The notes under the pieces were generated by a model. It was not told where the DNA came from and made no database searches. It was given only the letters and a program-made list of their open reading frames with translations. Below, piece after piece: positions 5,159-9,883 of a DNA stretch of 23,063 nucleotides. Location of the stretch: IMG/VR virus record IMGVR_UViG_3300046756_000186, positions 1 to 23,063 of that record; one strand, written 5' to 3'. The position numbers were made by a program, and so were the translations under genes. The stretch comes from a virus. Position 1 is the first letter of the stretch. Each line of letters starts with the position of its first letter.

Positions 5159-5761
5159 CTAGAATGGAATTTCATCATCTAACACATCATCGATAGGTTT
5201 TATGCTAACGACTTCAGCGCCGGCGAAGATTGACTTAACTTCATTAACCGCCTCGACCACCGGCTTGTTCTGTATGGATAACAGGTGCGCTATCTCACTG
5301 ACAGAATATACTAACATCTCACGGTTATCCCGCGCAACCTTTGTGCAATCGCCCTTGGTCTTGCATACCGCCAGCACCTTACCATCAGCCATCGGTGCTT
5401 CAAAGTAATCACCGGTCACTTCACTATGACCACGCGCAATAGCCTCTTGTTCTAGTTTTGCGTAAGCGCGTCCAGTCACTTCCACCTGACGCACGACTTC
5501 CATACCATCGTTGCCATCGATAGCCTTGTTCAGCCGGTCACGTTGCTGATAGAACTTCTCGCGCAACTCGAACGATACAAGTTCTTGTAATCGATCCACG
5601 CCCCACCGAACTTCATACGAACTAACCGTTGCATCGTGATCCATCAATGCACCCTGTATGCGTTTAAAATTAACATCATCATTTCTTGCGATACGTTGAA
5701 CCATACCCCACCACCCTCTCATCGGTTGTTTAACTCTTTTCGTAACCATCAGATTAACCAT
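5159..5761 (-). CDS. Hypothetical replication-operon protein with SSB-like acidic C-terminal tip
   Basis: This 200-aa protein is not recognised as a family member. It is charged and largely helical, with a Trp pair (GWWG, about 16-19), a long helical middle (about 50-105) and a last stretch ending DDVLDDEIPF. That tip closely resembles the DDDIPF tail by which bacterial single-strand-binding proteins recruit partners, so a single-strand-binding or partner-recruiting role is plausible but unproved. It lies between the primase-helicase and the DUF6378 gene. The ATG at 5761 lies three bases after a hairpin whose 3' arm carries the only G-rich ribosome site (5765-5783). Alternative ATGs are at codons 5, 14 and 20, so the exact start is uncertain. 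Confidence 0.7.
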   Translation of the reverse strand: MVNLMVTKRVKQPMRGWWGMVQRIARNDDVNFKRIQGALMDHDATVSSYEVRWGVDRLQELVSFELREKFYQQRDRLNKAIDGNDGMEVVRQVEVTGRAYAKLEQEAIARGHSEVTGDYFEAPMADGKVLAVCKTKGDCTKVARDNREMLVYSVSEIAHLLSIQNKPVVEAVNEVKSIFAGAEVVSIKPIDDVLDDEIPF

Positions 5762-5764
5762 TTA

Positions 5765-5783
5765 ACCACCCCTATAGGGTGGT
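5765..5783 (-). promoter_or_regulatory. Hairpin covering the ribosome site of the 5761 gene
   Basis: On the minus strand, ACCACCC, a 5-nt loop TATAG, and GGGTGGT form a perfect 7-bp stem that ends three bases before the ATG at 5761. The only purine-rich ribosome-binding sequence (GGGGTGG) lies in the loop end and 3' arm. If it folds, translation initiation would be occluded. The CCCTATAGGG core is also a DNA palindrome, so protein binding is an alternative. Confidence 0.6.
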
Positions 5784-5845
5784 GGTTAAAATAGTTAACA
5801 TTCTGCGGATTAACCATAACATTAACTTTTTTAACTATTTTAACC
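5784..5845 (-). repeat. Perfect 15-bp inverted repeat with iteron-like GGTTAA copies, directly after the primase stop
   Basis: Arms GGTTAAAATAGTTAA (5784-5798) and TTAACTATTTTAACC (5831-5845) are exact reverse complements around a 32-nt AT-rich loop. The left end abuts the hairpin at 5765-5783 and the right end abuts the primase stop codon. TTAACC (plus strand) occurs at 5754, 5762, 5810 and 5840, with an inverted copy at 5784. It could be an mRNA processing or stability structure, an operator, or a replication origin with iterons next to its initiator/primase gene. No T-tract makes it a standard terminator. Confidence 0.65.
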
Positions 5846-7699
5846 TTAGAACAAATCAGCATCAAAAGCCTCACCATCTAAGTTCCTGATAAGAGTAATA
5901 AAATTCTTACCTTGGTCTTGCGTGATTAACCCTAGCGTTTCATCCAAATAGTTAACCGCCTTATTTCTGGCATTTGACGGATGTTTAACGCCAAAGTTAT
6001 TAAAGTTAACCCATTCGGCCTTCATTCTGTCCAAAACAGCCTGTCTGCTAACCGGATTTTTCCCTGTTACGGAGTATTCCGCCAATATATTTTCCCAAGC
6101 ACTTAACTGTTGAGGGTTCAGGGTTATGCCCTTTTTTTCCTTCTTAACCTGAACTGATTTAATGACCGCGCTATCGTCAGCGACCAATGCAACCTTCTCG
6201 AAAGCAAACTGCATATCCGGTACTGGTTCAGCATCTTTCTGCTTCTCAACGTGTATCACGACATCTTCGCCAGCCGCCTTGACTTGCAATGACGTATCAA
6301 CCGCCCCTAGAAGCGCGTTAGAACCACGCATACCGCGACTAGTGTCCTTACCACTATGGTGTATCGCCAGCAACGCACAACCGGCGTGTGTGCGTACCCT
6401 GTCGCACGCTTCAACGAATATTCCAATTTCTGAACTGCTATTTTCTTCCATACCAACCATCGATCTTGCGACGGTGTCTATAACGATAAGCCCGTAATCA
6501 CCGCCGAAGTAATCTATGGTGTCGATCAGTTCCTGTATATCCGCTTCATCACGAAACTGCACCGCCTTCGGCACAACCTGCAACGGCACGTTATCGTTAA
6601 GACCATAATGGGTTTCCCAAGCTTTGACGCGCTTACCAAGGCCGCCTACGCCTTCGCCAGCTATATATAGCACCTTGCCGCCGTCAACCGTCCTGTCGTG
6701 CCACGCACGCCCATAGGCAACCGATAACGCTATGTCTAAGGCTATAAACGATTTACCTACGCCGGGTGCGCCATATAATGCGCTGAAGCCGTGTTTAGTT
6801 ATCACGCCATCAACCAGCCATTTGACCGGCGGCATATTACGCAATTCGTTAAGCCCCAAGATAGGCAGTATTTTTGCTGGCGGTTCATCCACCTTCGCTT
6901 CGATCTTCGGTGCGTTCTTAACCAGTTCGCGTAACTGCTCTGGCGTGTTACCAGCGTCAAGCCAATCAACCGCATCGCCTTTATCTGGCAGATTAGGCAG
7001 ATCAACGCGCTTAACGGCTTTTGCGACAGGCAGTAGTTCATTAATCACTTTTATCGCGTGCTTATCGCCAGCTTCATCGTTATCGGGGATTATGACCACA
7101 TTACGCCCAGCGAAATATGTGTTTAACTCTGGTTTCCAATTACCAGCACCGCCGTGGTTAGTTGACGTTATAACGCTATAACGCTTTAACGCTTCTGCGG
7201 CTTTCTCGCCTTCAACTATATAAATGGTCTTATCAGGGTTAGTCAGGATATCGGGCAGATTGTACGGAAGCGGATTAATGTCTTTGACCGACCATATCCA
7301 ACCGCCGCTATCATCTGGTCTGCGTTGTCGATATGTTTTCTTGCCGCCTTCATCAATGCGAATAACCTGATACGCCTCAACGCCGTCAGCGTCATAATAA
7401 CTATATTCGGTCGTACGCTTTAGCGTACGCTCTAAGGCCGGCTGTACTTTCTTAGATATGTTGAATTTCTTTTCGGCTATGTCAGCGATAGATTGCAGTG
7501 ATGCGCCTTCGTGCATCCTAATCATATCCATAACGCCACCACCTTCACCTAGTTCGTGGTCATAGAACGTGCCGGCTTTTAGATCAATCACCTTGCTGAA
7601 CTTATTGCCGAAATAAATCTTATCACCGCTTCGCTTTGTCGGGTTTCCCAGATAATGCGTGGCAACAGGTTCTATATAAGCCGCATAATTTGTTGTCAT
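5846..7699 (-). CDS. DNA primase-helicase (zinc-less TOPRIM primase fused to RepA/DnaB-type ATPase)
   Basis: This 617-aa bifunctional replication protein is encoded from the ATG at 7699, which has GGGAG nine bases upstream. A TTG further out at 7729 is in frame but lacks such a site. The N-terminal part (about 1-95) resembles a primase leader (GEGGGVMDMI, 51-60) without the usual zinc cysteines. The TOPRIM domain has IVEGEKAAEAL from about 161 and PDNDEAGD at 205-212. The helicase half has Walker A GAPGVGKS (310-317), Walker B-like LIVIDTVARS (about 404-413) and a sensor-type IHHSGKD (446-452), typical of RepA-like hexameric helicases. The last 80 residues look like a winged helix and end in FDADLF, an acidic/aromatic tip. 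It should unwind and prime phage DNA at the fork. The upstream leader has a striking hairpin (7734-7769). Confidence 0.92.
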   Translation of the reverse strand: MTTNYAAYIEPVATHYLGNPTKRSGDKIYFGNKFSKVIDLKAGTFYDHELGEGGGVMDMIRMHEGASLQSIADIAEKKFNISKKVQPALERTLKRTTEYSYYDADGVEAYQVIRIDEGGKKTYRQRRPDDSGGWIWSVKDINPLPYNLPDILTNPDKTIYIVEGEKAAEALKRYSVITSTNHGGAGNWKPELNTYFAGRNVVIIPDNDEAGDKHAIKVINELLPVAKAVKRVDLPNLPDKGDAVDWLDAGNTPEQLRELVKNAPKIEAKVDEPPAKILPILGLNELRNMPPVKWLVDGVITKHGFSALYGAPGVGKSFIALDIALSVAYGRAWHDRTVDGGKVLYIAGEGVGGLGKRVKAWETHYGLNDNVPLQVVPKAVQFRDEADIQELIDTIDYFGGDYGLIVIDTVARSMVGMEENSSSEIGIFVEACDRVRTHAGCALLAIHHSGKDTSRGMRGSNALLGAVDTSLQVKAAGEDVVIHVEKQKDAEPVPDMQFAFEKVALVADDSAVIKSVQVKKEKKGITLNPQQLSAWENILAEYSVTGKNPVSRQAVLDRMKAEWVNFNNFGVKHPSNARNKAVNYLDETLGLITQDQGKNFITLIRNLDGEAFDADLF

Positions 7700-7710
7700 T
7701 GGTATTCTCC

Positions 7711-7769
7711 CAGTTCTCCCAGACGCCAAGAGCGATGGCGGTCTAGCTGGGAGAGGCTAGACCGCCATC
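7711..7769 (-). promoter_or_regulatory. Leader hairpin with loop complementary to tandem Shine-Dalgarno copies of the primase-helicase
   Basis: On the minus strand, a perfect 14-bp stem GATGGCGGTCTAGC / GCTAGACCGCCATC (7756-7769 and 7734-7747) encloses the 8-nt loop CTCTCCCA. Fifteen to thirty bases downstream lie two copies of TGGGAGA separated by AC, the second being the ribosome site of the ATG at 7699. Seven loop bases (TCTCCCA) are exactly complementary to each copy, allowing a pseudoknot that would hide the ribosome site. No T-tract follows, so it is not a standard terminator. Confidence 0.75.
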
Positions 7770-7778
7770 TTCTACGAC

Positions 7779-8387
7779 CTAAAACAAGTCGTCATCCGAC
7801 TGAGCCGCTGGGGTCGGCGCAGGAGCGACAGGTTCAGGCGCAGAACCTGTCAACATATCAGGAGCATCCACCCAGCCTGATATGTTCCATTCGGGTGCTT
7901 TAAAACGCAAATCGCCTTGTGGCGTGCTAACCTTCACCGCAACCGTGCCAGTGATTTCAACAACCGGAACTTGACCGGGATGTTGTGCTTTGGTTGCCTC
8001 GAAAGCATTATGCAATTCGTCTAAAGCCCTCATTACAGTTTTAGCAGAGTGTGAGAACTCACGCAAACCTAACTGCTTAGAACAGATGCGAACGCGAAAC
8101 GCACGCTTAAAGTCGCCTTCCGGTTTTGCCGGAATAGCCTCGCCAACTTTGACCATCTGAAAGTCTGGTCTGCCTGACTCGAAAGATAACCACCCAACTT
8201 CCAGATTATGCATATCCATTACAAATTTGACCGGCAGAGCAATTTCGCTTTCATCTTTCATCCATTGACCGGATGCGTCTTGAACGCGATCTTGCTTAAT
8301 CAAATCACCAGCCTTCGCATCATATTTGACGATAGGCAGAATATCCCCAGTTGAAGTTGACTCATCTAAATTAAAACCTAATGCCAT
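7779..8387 (-). CDS. Putative phage single-stranded DNA-binding protein
   Basis: This 202-aa protein starts at the ATG at 8387, chosen because AGGAG lies eight bases upstream; the longer frame to 8483 would run far into the upstream nuclease gene. It is beta-rich (about 1-180), followed by a Pro/Ala linker (PEPVAPAPTPAAQ) and an acidic aromatic tip SDDDLF. That layout (OB-like body, flexible linker, acidic tail with terminal Phe) is that of phage ssDNA-binding proteins such as T7 gp2.5. Similar proteins occur beside primases in alphaproteobacterial phages, usually as hypotheticals. The gene lies directly upstream of the primase-helicase. The assignment rests on architecture and context, not a diagnostic motif. 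Confidence 0.6.
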   Translation of the reverse strand: MALGFNLDESTSTGDILPIVKYDAKAGDLIKQDRVQDASGQWMKDESEIALPVKFVMDMHNLEVGWLSFESGRPDFQMVKVGEAIPAKPEGDFKRAFRVRICSKQLGLREFSHSAKTVMRALDELHNAFEATKAQHPGQVPVVEITGTVAVKVSTPQGDLRFKAPEWNISGWVDAPDMLTGSAPEPVAPAPTPAAQSDDDLF

Positions 8388-8412: not shown

Positions 8413-8832
8413 TTAGTTGCATTTGACCTCACCAAAAGTGAAGCCGCTAATCGGGTAAAAAGCAAACAGATCAACCGGATCATCCCGATCAGTGCGTCTG
8501 CTTATCCCGATATCGTGTTCAGCATCGAAATTAATGATGCCGATACGATCCGTCCATTCGACTAATAACTTGCATTTCAGCCCAGTTGCGCTGGTTAGGT
8601 TAGACGCGGCAATGACTTTATGCAAGTTAACCATCATCGATGGGTATTCCGTTGATGCGAAACTGCGCGTCTTTATTTCGATAAAACCAATAGATTTATC
8701 GCCGCGCATCAATAACGCATCCATAATATATTTGTTAGGTAGATCGACACATTCGCATTTGTATCGTTCAGCGATTGCCGTCATAAGTTGCTTTTCACGC
8801 GCGATTGCGTCTGGAGTATCATACCAAGTCAT
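8413..8832 (-). CDS. PD-(D/E)XK nuclease-fold protein
   Basis: This 139-aa protein has the core of the PD-(D/E)XK nuclease fold: D38 in YIMDALL, then E52-I-K54 in GFIEIKTR, with a strand-loop-strand between. The N-terminal helix (about 8-22) carries an acidic residue that could complete the metal site. Short stand-alone members of this fold in phages act as resolvases, VRR-type nucleases or recombination nucleases. Specificity cannot be told here. It overlaps the Mom-like stop by 4 nt (ATGA) and precedes the ssDNA-binding protein. The plus-strand open frame across this gene is a shadow. Confidence 0.75.
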   Translation of the reverse strand: MTWYDTPDAIAREKQLMTAIAERYKCECVDLPNKYIMDALLMRGDKSIGFIEIKTRSFASTEYPSMMVNLHKVIAASNLTSATGLKCKLLVEWTDRIGIINFDAEHDIGISRRTDRDDPVDLFAFYPISGFTFGEVKCN

Positions 8833-9449
8833 ATCAATAACCCTTGAGTTTCTATATCACCTGAAGCGTCATAATTATTATTGTCACCTTTTGGATAATC
8901 CTCAATTTTATATCGAAGATTTTTTAGGTATTCGCGCTTTTGTCGTTTGTCAGCCGCAAAATAAACATAGCGATGTTTTCTTGGGCGTTCCACAGTTTCA
9001 CCACCTTTTACCCACTTGCCTCTGCTATGTTTCCCAGATGTGCAATCAAAACCAACAGGATCAAACCTTTTTTCACTTAATCCGCAATAAATGAAATTAG
9101 TCGCCTGATAAATATAACCGTGATGCCCCATCTTTGTGTCAGCATAAGAAACAACTATTTTAGGTCTTGGCAACAATTTAAGAGAGTTTCCGATCAAGAA
9201 ACTAGCTTGATTTCTTTTATTGCTGTTAAGAACCAATCTATTTAATTCTAGAACTTGATCCGCGTATTCAGCTCCACAAATGCCAATGCACAAATGACGA
9301 CTTGGCGGCAATCCATAAGTGATAACGCCTTCAAGAACACTATCAACATAAAGACCATAAGCGAACATCACGACAGGCAATCTTTTTGCGTAATGCTTTT
9401 TCCGCAACCACGGATGCGCTTCTTCTTTCTTTATGGGTGACACAATCAT
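8829..9449 (-). CDS. mom: Mom-like DNA adenine modification protein
   Basis: This 206-aa protein starts at the ATG at 9449, selected by AGGGAG just upstream and the 4-nt ATGA overlap with the previous gene; the longer frame to 9509 intrudes on that gene. The sequence matches the phage Mu Mom family: KKHYAKRLP near the start (HY at 19-20), ELNRLVL (68-74), a PKIVVSYADTKMGHHG block (96-111) and IYQATNF (113-119), then GKHSRGKW. Mom is a GNAT-fold enzyme that converts adenines to N6-carbamoylmethyl-adenine and protects phage DNA from many restriction enzymes. The fold and family are supported by motifs; the exact chemical product here is inferred. Unlike Mu, where mom is expressed late under Dam and Com control, this gene sits in an operon with replication nucleases. 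Confidence 0.85.
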   Translation of the reverse strand: MIVSPIKKEEAHPWLRKKHYAKRLPVVMFAYGLYVDSVLEGVITYGLPPSRHLCIGICGAEYADQVLELNRLVLNSNKRNQASFLIGNSLKLLPRPKIVVSYADTKMGHHGYIYQATNFIYCGLSEKRFDPVGFDCTSGKHSRGKWVKGGETVERPRKHRYVYFAADKRQKREYLKNLRYKIEDYPKGDNNNYDASGDIETQGLLI

Positions 9450-9883
9450 AGCAACTCCCTGCACACATAGAAGAACGTTTCCATATCCATTTCGCACGCA
9501 TAACGCCAATCGTGGGGCATACCGCCACCAGAACGAACATTGAAGTCTTTAATGTTGGCAACGGCCTCAAGCGGAACACGCACACGCGGCTGTTGCCTAT
9601 CATAACGATAGATTAGGCACGGAAACTTGTTACCGCCAGCCTTACGCGCCGCAACGCAAATCTGATCCCACCATTCCGGCTTTGCCTGATAGCCAAGGCC
9701 GTAACGCTTGCACTCTATCACGAATGGAAAGTTAGTAACTTGAACTGGTTCGATGTCGGCTAGGCCACCTTCGCGCGTTTGCGATAGGATGCGCTGAAAC
9801 TTGATGCCAAGAGCTTCTTCAAGCAATTTACAGCATTCACGTTCCCACGCGTGACCTTTATCACGACCACCACCCGGACGCAT
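9446..9883 (-). CDS. PD-(D/E)XK nuclease, Holliday-junction-resolvase-like
   Basis: This 145-aa protein opens with a glycine-rich GGGRDKGHAWERECC segment carrying E14, then SQTREGGLADIEP with D43, and FPFVIECKRY with E57-C-K59. This E...D...ExK order is that of Hjc-type resolvases and phage endonucleases of the PD-(D/E)XK fold. It would cleave branched DNA before packaging or during recombination. It is second in the operon, joined to the ribbon-helix-helix regulator by a TAATG overlap and to the Mom-like gene by ATGA. Catalytic residues look intact. Resolvase versus other branch-specific nuclease is not decided by sequence alone. Confidence 0.78.
   Translation of the reverse strand: MRPGGGRDKGHAWERECCKLLEEALGIKFQRILSQTREGGLADIEPVQVTNFPFVIECKRYGLGYQAKPEWWDQICVAARKAGGNKFPCLIYRYDRQQPRVRVPLEAVANIKDFNVRSGGGMPHDWRYACEMDMETFFYVCRELL

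Follow-up and report, generated by a model that had tools for sequence, protein, structure and literature searches.

A predicted pseudoknot ahead of the primase-helicase gene in a clade of uncultured phages

Between the genes for an SSB-like protein and a primase-helicase, the window (the whole 23,063-nucleotide stretch analysed, IMG/VR record IMGVR_UViG_3300046756_000186) carries a hairpin whose loop is complementary to sequence just ahead of the primase-helicase start codon. Judged by comparative sequence analysis, the hairpin stem (S1), the loop-leader helix (S2), the strand on which they act, their position and their confinement to one phage group are established. From this we infer control of primase-helicase translation initiation, because S2 is always Shine-Dalgarno-like even though S1 varies, and because it adjoins the ribosome site. 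The reading that we favour, and consider reasonably probable, is a cis-acting pseudoknot on the SSB-like/primase-helicase transcript that would control primase-helicase translation, most likely as a throttle. Few pseudoknots control translation initiation in bacteria and phages, and predicting them is difficult; comparative support for this one is unusually strong, and it lies between two core replication genes of a widespread, uncultured phage clade seen mostly in environmental metagenomes.

The leader and its flanking genes

The features of the junction, in window positions, are as follows.

7779 to 8387, minus strand: upstream gene, putative SSB-like protein of 202 aa with C-terminus DDDLF (acidic tail and synteny)
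7770 to 7778, minus strand: spacer of 9 nt from the upstream stop codon to the stem (family median 9)
7756 to 7769, minus strand: 5′ arm of S1, GATGGCGGTCTAGC (inverted repeat and covariation)
7748 to 7755, minus strand: loop CTCTCCCA, in which TCTCCCA is the 5′ strand of S2 (sequence and S2 comparison)
7734 to 7747, minus strand: 3′ arm of S1, GCTAGACCGCCATC (inverted repeat and covariation)
7722 to 7733, minus strand: linker of 12 nt, loop 3 of the predicted pseudoknot, without a U-tract
7715 to 7721, minus strand: upstream TGGGAGA copy, the conserved 3′ strand of S2 and predicted pseudoknot target (loop-leader comparison)
7706 to 7712, minus strand: downstream TGGGAGA copy, the primase-helicase Shine-Dalgarno; alternative loop target in some clades only
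5846 to 7699, minus strand: primase-helicase (Toprim and AAA_25/RepA-like), ATG at 7699 (domain searches)

The stem (7769-7756 with 7747-7734) is perfect in 14/14 pairs. The two TGGGAGA copies (7721-7715 and 7712-7706) are spaced by AC, and the second is followed by ATACCA and then the ATG at 7699-7697. A preliminary description of this DNA had reported the 14-bp stem with its loop, the tandem copies with the second as ribosome site, and seven loop bases complementary to either copy. All of this holds on the minus strand, TCTCCCA being the exact complement of both copies, and pairing with the upstream copy reaches 8 bp once the first G of the stem is included. Shuffles of the window give 0 expected occurrences of the tandem TGGGAGA..TGGGAG, and only three inverted repeats of at least 13 nt within 60 nt, this stem among them, occur in the window. 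The hairpin is the strongest ahead of any gene start tested (score 37 versus 22 for the next best), and the 131-nt region folds with z = -3.1. The linker of the window clade contains CUCUUGG, which can pair weakly with the first copy; this local CUCUUGG/CUGGGAG hairpin was dropped as a part of the element, as it is largely specific to that clade.

Searches with the downstream protein gave an AAA_25 domain, Toprim as a weak match, and primase/helicase PHROGs. The upstream gene ends in a TAG at 7781-7779, and the start of its product, MALGFN, is conserved. Pfam and PHROG profile searches gave no SSB match for this protein, and its AlphaFold model had no significant match in a search of PDB structures. 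Roseobacter phage CRP-406 encodes a primase-helicase 33% identical to that of the window over part of its length, and the same slot there is occupied by a gp2.5-like ssDNA-binding protein, unrelated in sequence to the upstream protein of the window. Given this occupant, it is reasonable to regard the upstream protein as a putative SSB from its acidic tail and synteny.

Covariation in the stem and the loop-leader helix

Against annotated phage records, blastn returned no matches and tblastn with the upstream protein a single one, so most of the sequences compared come from IMG/VR contigs that were retrieved by way of the primase or the SSB-like protein. Deduplication left 48 pseudoknot-type leaders and 20 leaders of other types. 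The 48 distinct leaders come from related uncultured phages and are not independent sequences. In all of them the hairpin persists between the SSB-like and primase-helicase genes, its sequence largely rewritten, and the primase-helicase ATG at 7699 is kept in relatives. A covariance model built from 11 leaders finds divergent leaders at the SSB/primase junction and, in the sources tested, only weak matches elsewhere.

Among 42 aligned matches, all 14 of the 14 pairs of S1 show two-sided changes and 98.1% of cells are paired, versus 64.9% when shuffled and 31-61% when slid by 1-3 columns; this count leans in favour of the stem, since the alignment was fitted to it and contains one palindromic reverse-strand match of the window. 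Two MAFFT alignments (A4 and A7) that misplace the stem in some rows are excluded from the counts. A hand-defined stem set of 276 cells comprises 245 Watson-Crick and 31 G·U pairs, with 0 A·C and no other combination. The presence of G·U together with the complete absence of A·C points to selection on RNA of the coding strand, and the element, by this pattern of substitution, acts as RNA on that strand; the same counts rule out a DNA-level element such as a cruciform or origin hairpin.

For S2, each loop was compared with its own downstream sequence, 6-18 nt past the stem. The best helices have 5-11 bp, start a median of 11 nt past the stem and end a median of 13 nt before the ATG (11-15 nt in most leaders). 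Copies lying 3-5 nt past the stem, as in L073 and similar leaders, were judged too close to span a 14-bp stem and were not taken as S2. The partners were picked as best matches, and the swap test follows the identical rule, with loops and downstream parts exchanged among 21 representatives so that the controls are themselves pyrimidine-rich loops and purine-rich leaders. At the upstream site, own loops score 407 versus 343 ± 12 for swaps (z = 5.4, p = 0.00025), and a set of 17 representatives with fewer near relatives gives p = 0.0005. S2 reaches 91.7% pairing when 11 leaders are aligned by plain MAFFT, and two of its pairs have changed on both sides. Compensation is seen directly where UCUCCCA/UGGGAGA is replaced by UCUCCCGA/UCGGGGGA, where L341 has GUUCUCCC/GGGAGAAC and its sister L345 has GCUCUCCC/GGGAGAGC, and between UCCCUUGACC/GGUCAAGGGA and UCCCUUGCCC/GGGCAAGGGA. 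The helix is weak (5-6 bp) in four leaders (L071, L166, L193 and L199). Every S2 site contains GGG or GGAG, although S1 changes freely, which points to ribosome-site chemistry.

Pairing of the loop outside its own hairpin, the mark of an H-type pseudoknot, is thus kept with compensatory changes, and the lengths suit such a fold: in the window loop 1 is 1 nt with a 7-bp S2, and loop 3, with a median of 11 nt, spans ~14 bp, as judged on lengths only. By a rough energy estimate that includes a pseudoknot penalty, the pseudoknot is favoured in 44 of the 48 leaders (median -2.9 kcal/mol). For the window the same estimate puts it level with the nested fold (+0.4 kcal/mol), the CUCUUGG hairpin competing for the first copy; this near-balance fits a regulatable structure, without being evidence for one. 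The preliminary description had proposed the pseudoknot and named loss of covariation or of complementarity in related phages as grounds for abandoning it. The comparison finds neither lost, and the predicted pseudoknot is well supported by covariation in both the stem and the loop-leader helix.

Translational control, its rivals and known pseudoknots

In relatives outside the clade, the slot is filled by plain hairpins or by short GC stems with tails of 6-8 T. At least 6 T in the first 8 nt past the stem occur in 0/48 pseudoknot leaders versus 10/20 others, and several pseudoknot leaders retain 4-5 T there. An intrinsic (rho-independent) terminator is ruled out for the pseudoknot clade, as no U run follows immediately (the window tail is GCTCTTGG). 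In a primase tree (61 sequences) the pseudoknot leaders group together, with 2 label changes versus 12.4 when shuffled, and the terminator-bearing relatives fall mostly outside. Inside the cluster lies L235, a relative in a metagenome-assembled Opitutae contig (CAKZOI010000014.1), with a CUCC loop and a U5 run. In its leader, a stem with CCCTCC in its long loop and a T5 run precede the ribosome site; this leader is possibly an intermediate between the two forms. Because support for some branches is weak and the rooting arbitrary, a terminator that came first and a pseudoknot that came later would be the simplest reading of the tree, not proof. Leaders and primase genes also appear to have recombined: near-identical leaders in L333/L335/L338/L340 and L353/L361/L366/L370 precede primases of separate, well-supported clades, which suggests recombination near the SSB-like/primase junction. 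The apparent origin of the element where relatives use a terminator makes a swap between transcriptional and translational control at one phage junction testable.

In the mechanism that we propose, the 14-bp S1 would present a pyrimidine loop with a CUCCC core, which would form the 5-11 bp of S2 with a purine, Shine-Dalgarno-like box ~11 nt downstream. The resulting H-type pseudoknot would adjoin the true Shine-Dalgarno, and 30S subunits would have to displace it, which would hold helicase output down relative to that of the upstream gene. It would have replaced or modified a terminator and assumed the job that the intrinsic terminator has at the same place in outside relatives. A throttle is favoured because the slot in those relatives holds a terminator, which lowers downstream expression, and the element probably tunes the amount of replication helicase made relative to the upstream gene. 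More tentatively, it could represent a new class of riboregulator in which the terminator hairpin of an SSB/primase-helicase junction became a translational pseudoknot, with a loop that mimics the 16S anti-Shine-Dalgarno and competes with the ribosome. Such a device, for which free SSB or ribosomes completing the upstream gene might act as the gate, would couple helicase synthesis to the replication state; we regard this extension as doubtful.

The main rival to a throttle is activation of the kind seen in timP and tisB, in which the S1/S2 stack would be a platform or standby structure beside a free Shine-Dalgarno and would recruit or position the 30S subunit. In most clades the conserved S2 does not cover the Shine-Dalgarno, and activating pseudoknots close to the ribosome site exist in the timP and tisB mRNAs (PMC11295053) and, by a title cited in PMC10724649, in plasmid repZ. 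However, every paired box is Shine-Dalgarno-like, which means that a potential docking site is hidden by the pairing, and the known activators rely on an antisense RNA or a processing step; we consider activation rather unlikely. A different use of the same parts was suggested by the preliminary description, namely a switch: the loop would leave translation open when paired with the upstream copy and shut it when paired with the Shine-Dalgarno copy. Such a switch might answer to a protein, for instance the SSB-like product. The proposal stands in part, as the upstream pairing is conserved (z = 5.4) but strong Shine-Dalgarno pairing occurs in some clades only. In the window and three close leader types the loop is complementary to either copy, dual targets also occur in L194/L347 and L341/L345, and the Shine-Dalgarno region also exceeds swaps (p = 0.003), a result driven by the window clade, L194/L347, L341/L345, L349 and L359. 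Strong pairing of that copy is limited to the window and L001-L009, L194/L347, L341/L345 and, partly, L349 and L359; most other clades retain the upstream target alone, their Shine-Dalgarno offering 4-5 complementary bases, and in many it is a distinct GAGG, GGGGU or GGGA. Moreover, with a loop core similar to an anti-Shine-Dalgarno, some degree of match is expected for any strong Shine-Dalgarno. Both copies are therefore not loop complements across the family, a two-target switch is not the conserved feature, and we think it improbable. By the same comparison, the conserved partner is the upstream copy, ~11 nt past the stem and directly 5′ of the Shine-Dalgarno. A closed, Shine-Dalgarno-occluding state is possible in the window clade and other dual-target clades, and in the window clade it could be a fully closed one, since the Shine-Dalgarno there is a second perfect loop target.

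Least probable is an ordinary hairpin (a degenerate terminator, an RNase processing site or a 3′-end stabiliser of the upstream mRNA) with loop complementarity as a by-product. The GC stems with T6-T8 tails in outside relatives and the 4-5 T kept by some pseudoknot leaders would agree with such an origin. Yet the U-tract has been lost, the simple terminators and plain hairpins of relatives have no comparable loop complement, and own loops match own leaders better than swapped ones of the same composition.

The preQ1-I and SAM-II riboswitches and rpsO/S15 use H-type pseudoknots that sequester the Shine-Dalgarno through a loop-to-ribosome-site helix. The window leader, in contrast, has no visible ligand aptamer, its S1 is a plain 14-bp rod, and the S2 of the family usually lies upstream of the Shine-Dalgarno. 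In repZ of ColIb-P9, a leader pseudoknot close to the ribosome site controls initiation. Closeness to the ribosome site is shared with repZ, timP and tisB, but these are plasmid or toxin genes with antisense RNA or processing within their control. The pseudoknot of T4 gene 32 was called in 2010 perhaps the sole viral case in translational autoregulation (PMC3014915). Like the window element, the gene 32 (SSB) operator of T4, T2 and RB69 is a phage H-type pseudoknot in a replication-gene leader, 5′ of the ribosome site (PMC3014915, PMC535899). In T4 it is found ~67 nt ahead of gene 32, the SSB gene itself, separated from the start by a less structured UUAAA region, and these papers do not characterise its partner strand as Shine-Dalgarno-like, as that of the window element is. 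The window element instead adjoins the Shine-Dalgarno, and it follows the SSB-like gene and precedes the primase-helicase, an order that does not fit an autogenous operator of the gene 32 type. The STAXI motif also consists of repeated pseudoknots near SSB and DNA-processing genes, but in arrays of two or three (PMC2864571), whereas the window element is a single pseudoknot. No Rfam family scored above its gathering threshold, the best sub-threshold match in the leader being C4 antisense (19.6 bits versus 45), and a search of freely available papers gave no earlier description. In architecture the element is distinct, and we regard it as a new RNA family, though one of a known kind.

Other features of the window

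Past the primase stop, positions 5735-5848 (minus strand) hold a ~110-nt array in which short repeats, both direct and inverted, surround a palindrome. A similar array follows the primase in L001-L008, L070, L071, L074, L075 and L167, with palindromes such as CCCTATAGGG, CCCTTAGGG and CCCTTAAGGG and a repeat unit that varies by clade (GTTAA, GGTAAGGTT, ATCGCA, ATACGGTC or ATCACA). It looks like an iteron-type origin or a protein-binding array whose unit changes wholesale. Within it, two overlapping hairpins (5762-5789 and 5784-5845, minus strand), one with 15-bp arms around a 32-nt loop, the other of 9 bp and adjoining the ATG at 5761, could be alternative folds. Elsewhere, positions 8829-9509 (minus strand) encode a protein of the Mom family (Pfam Mom, E 6.5e-35), with a RusA-like resolvase and a PDDEXK nuclease encoded close by, which makes DNA modification by the window phage possible.
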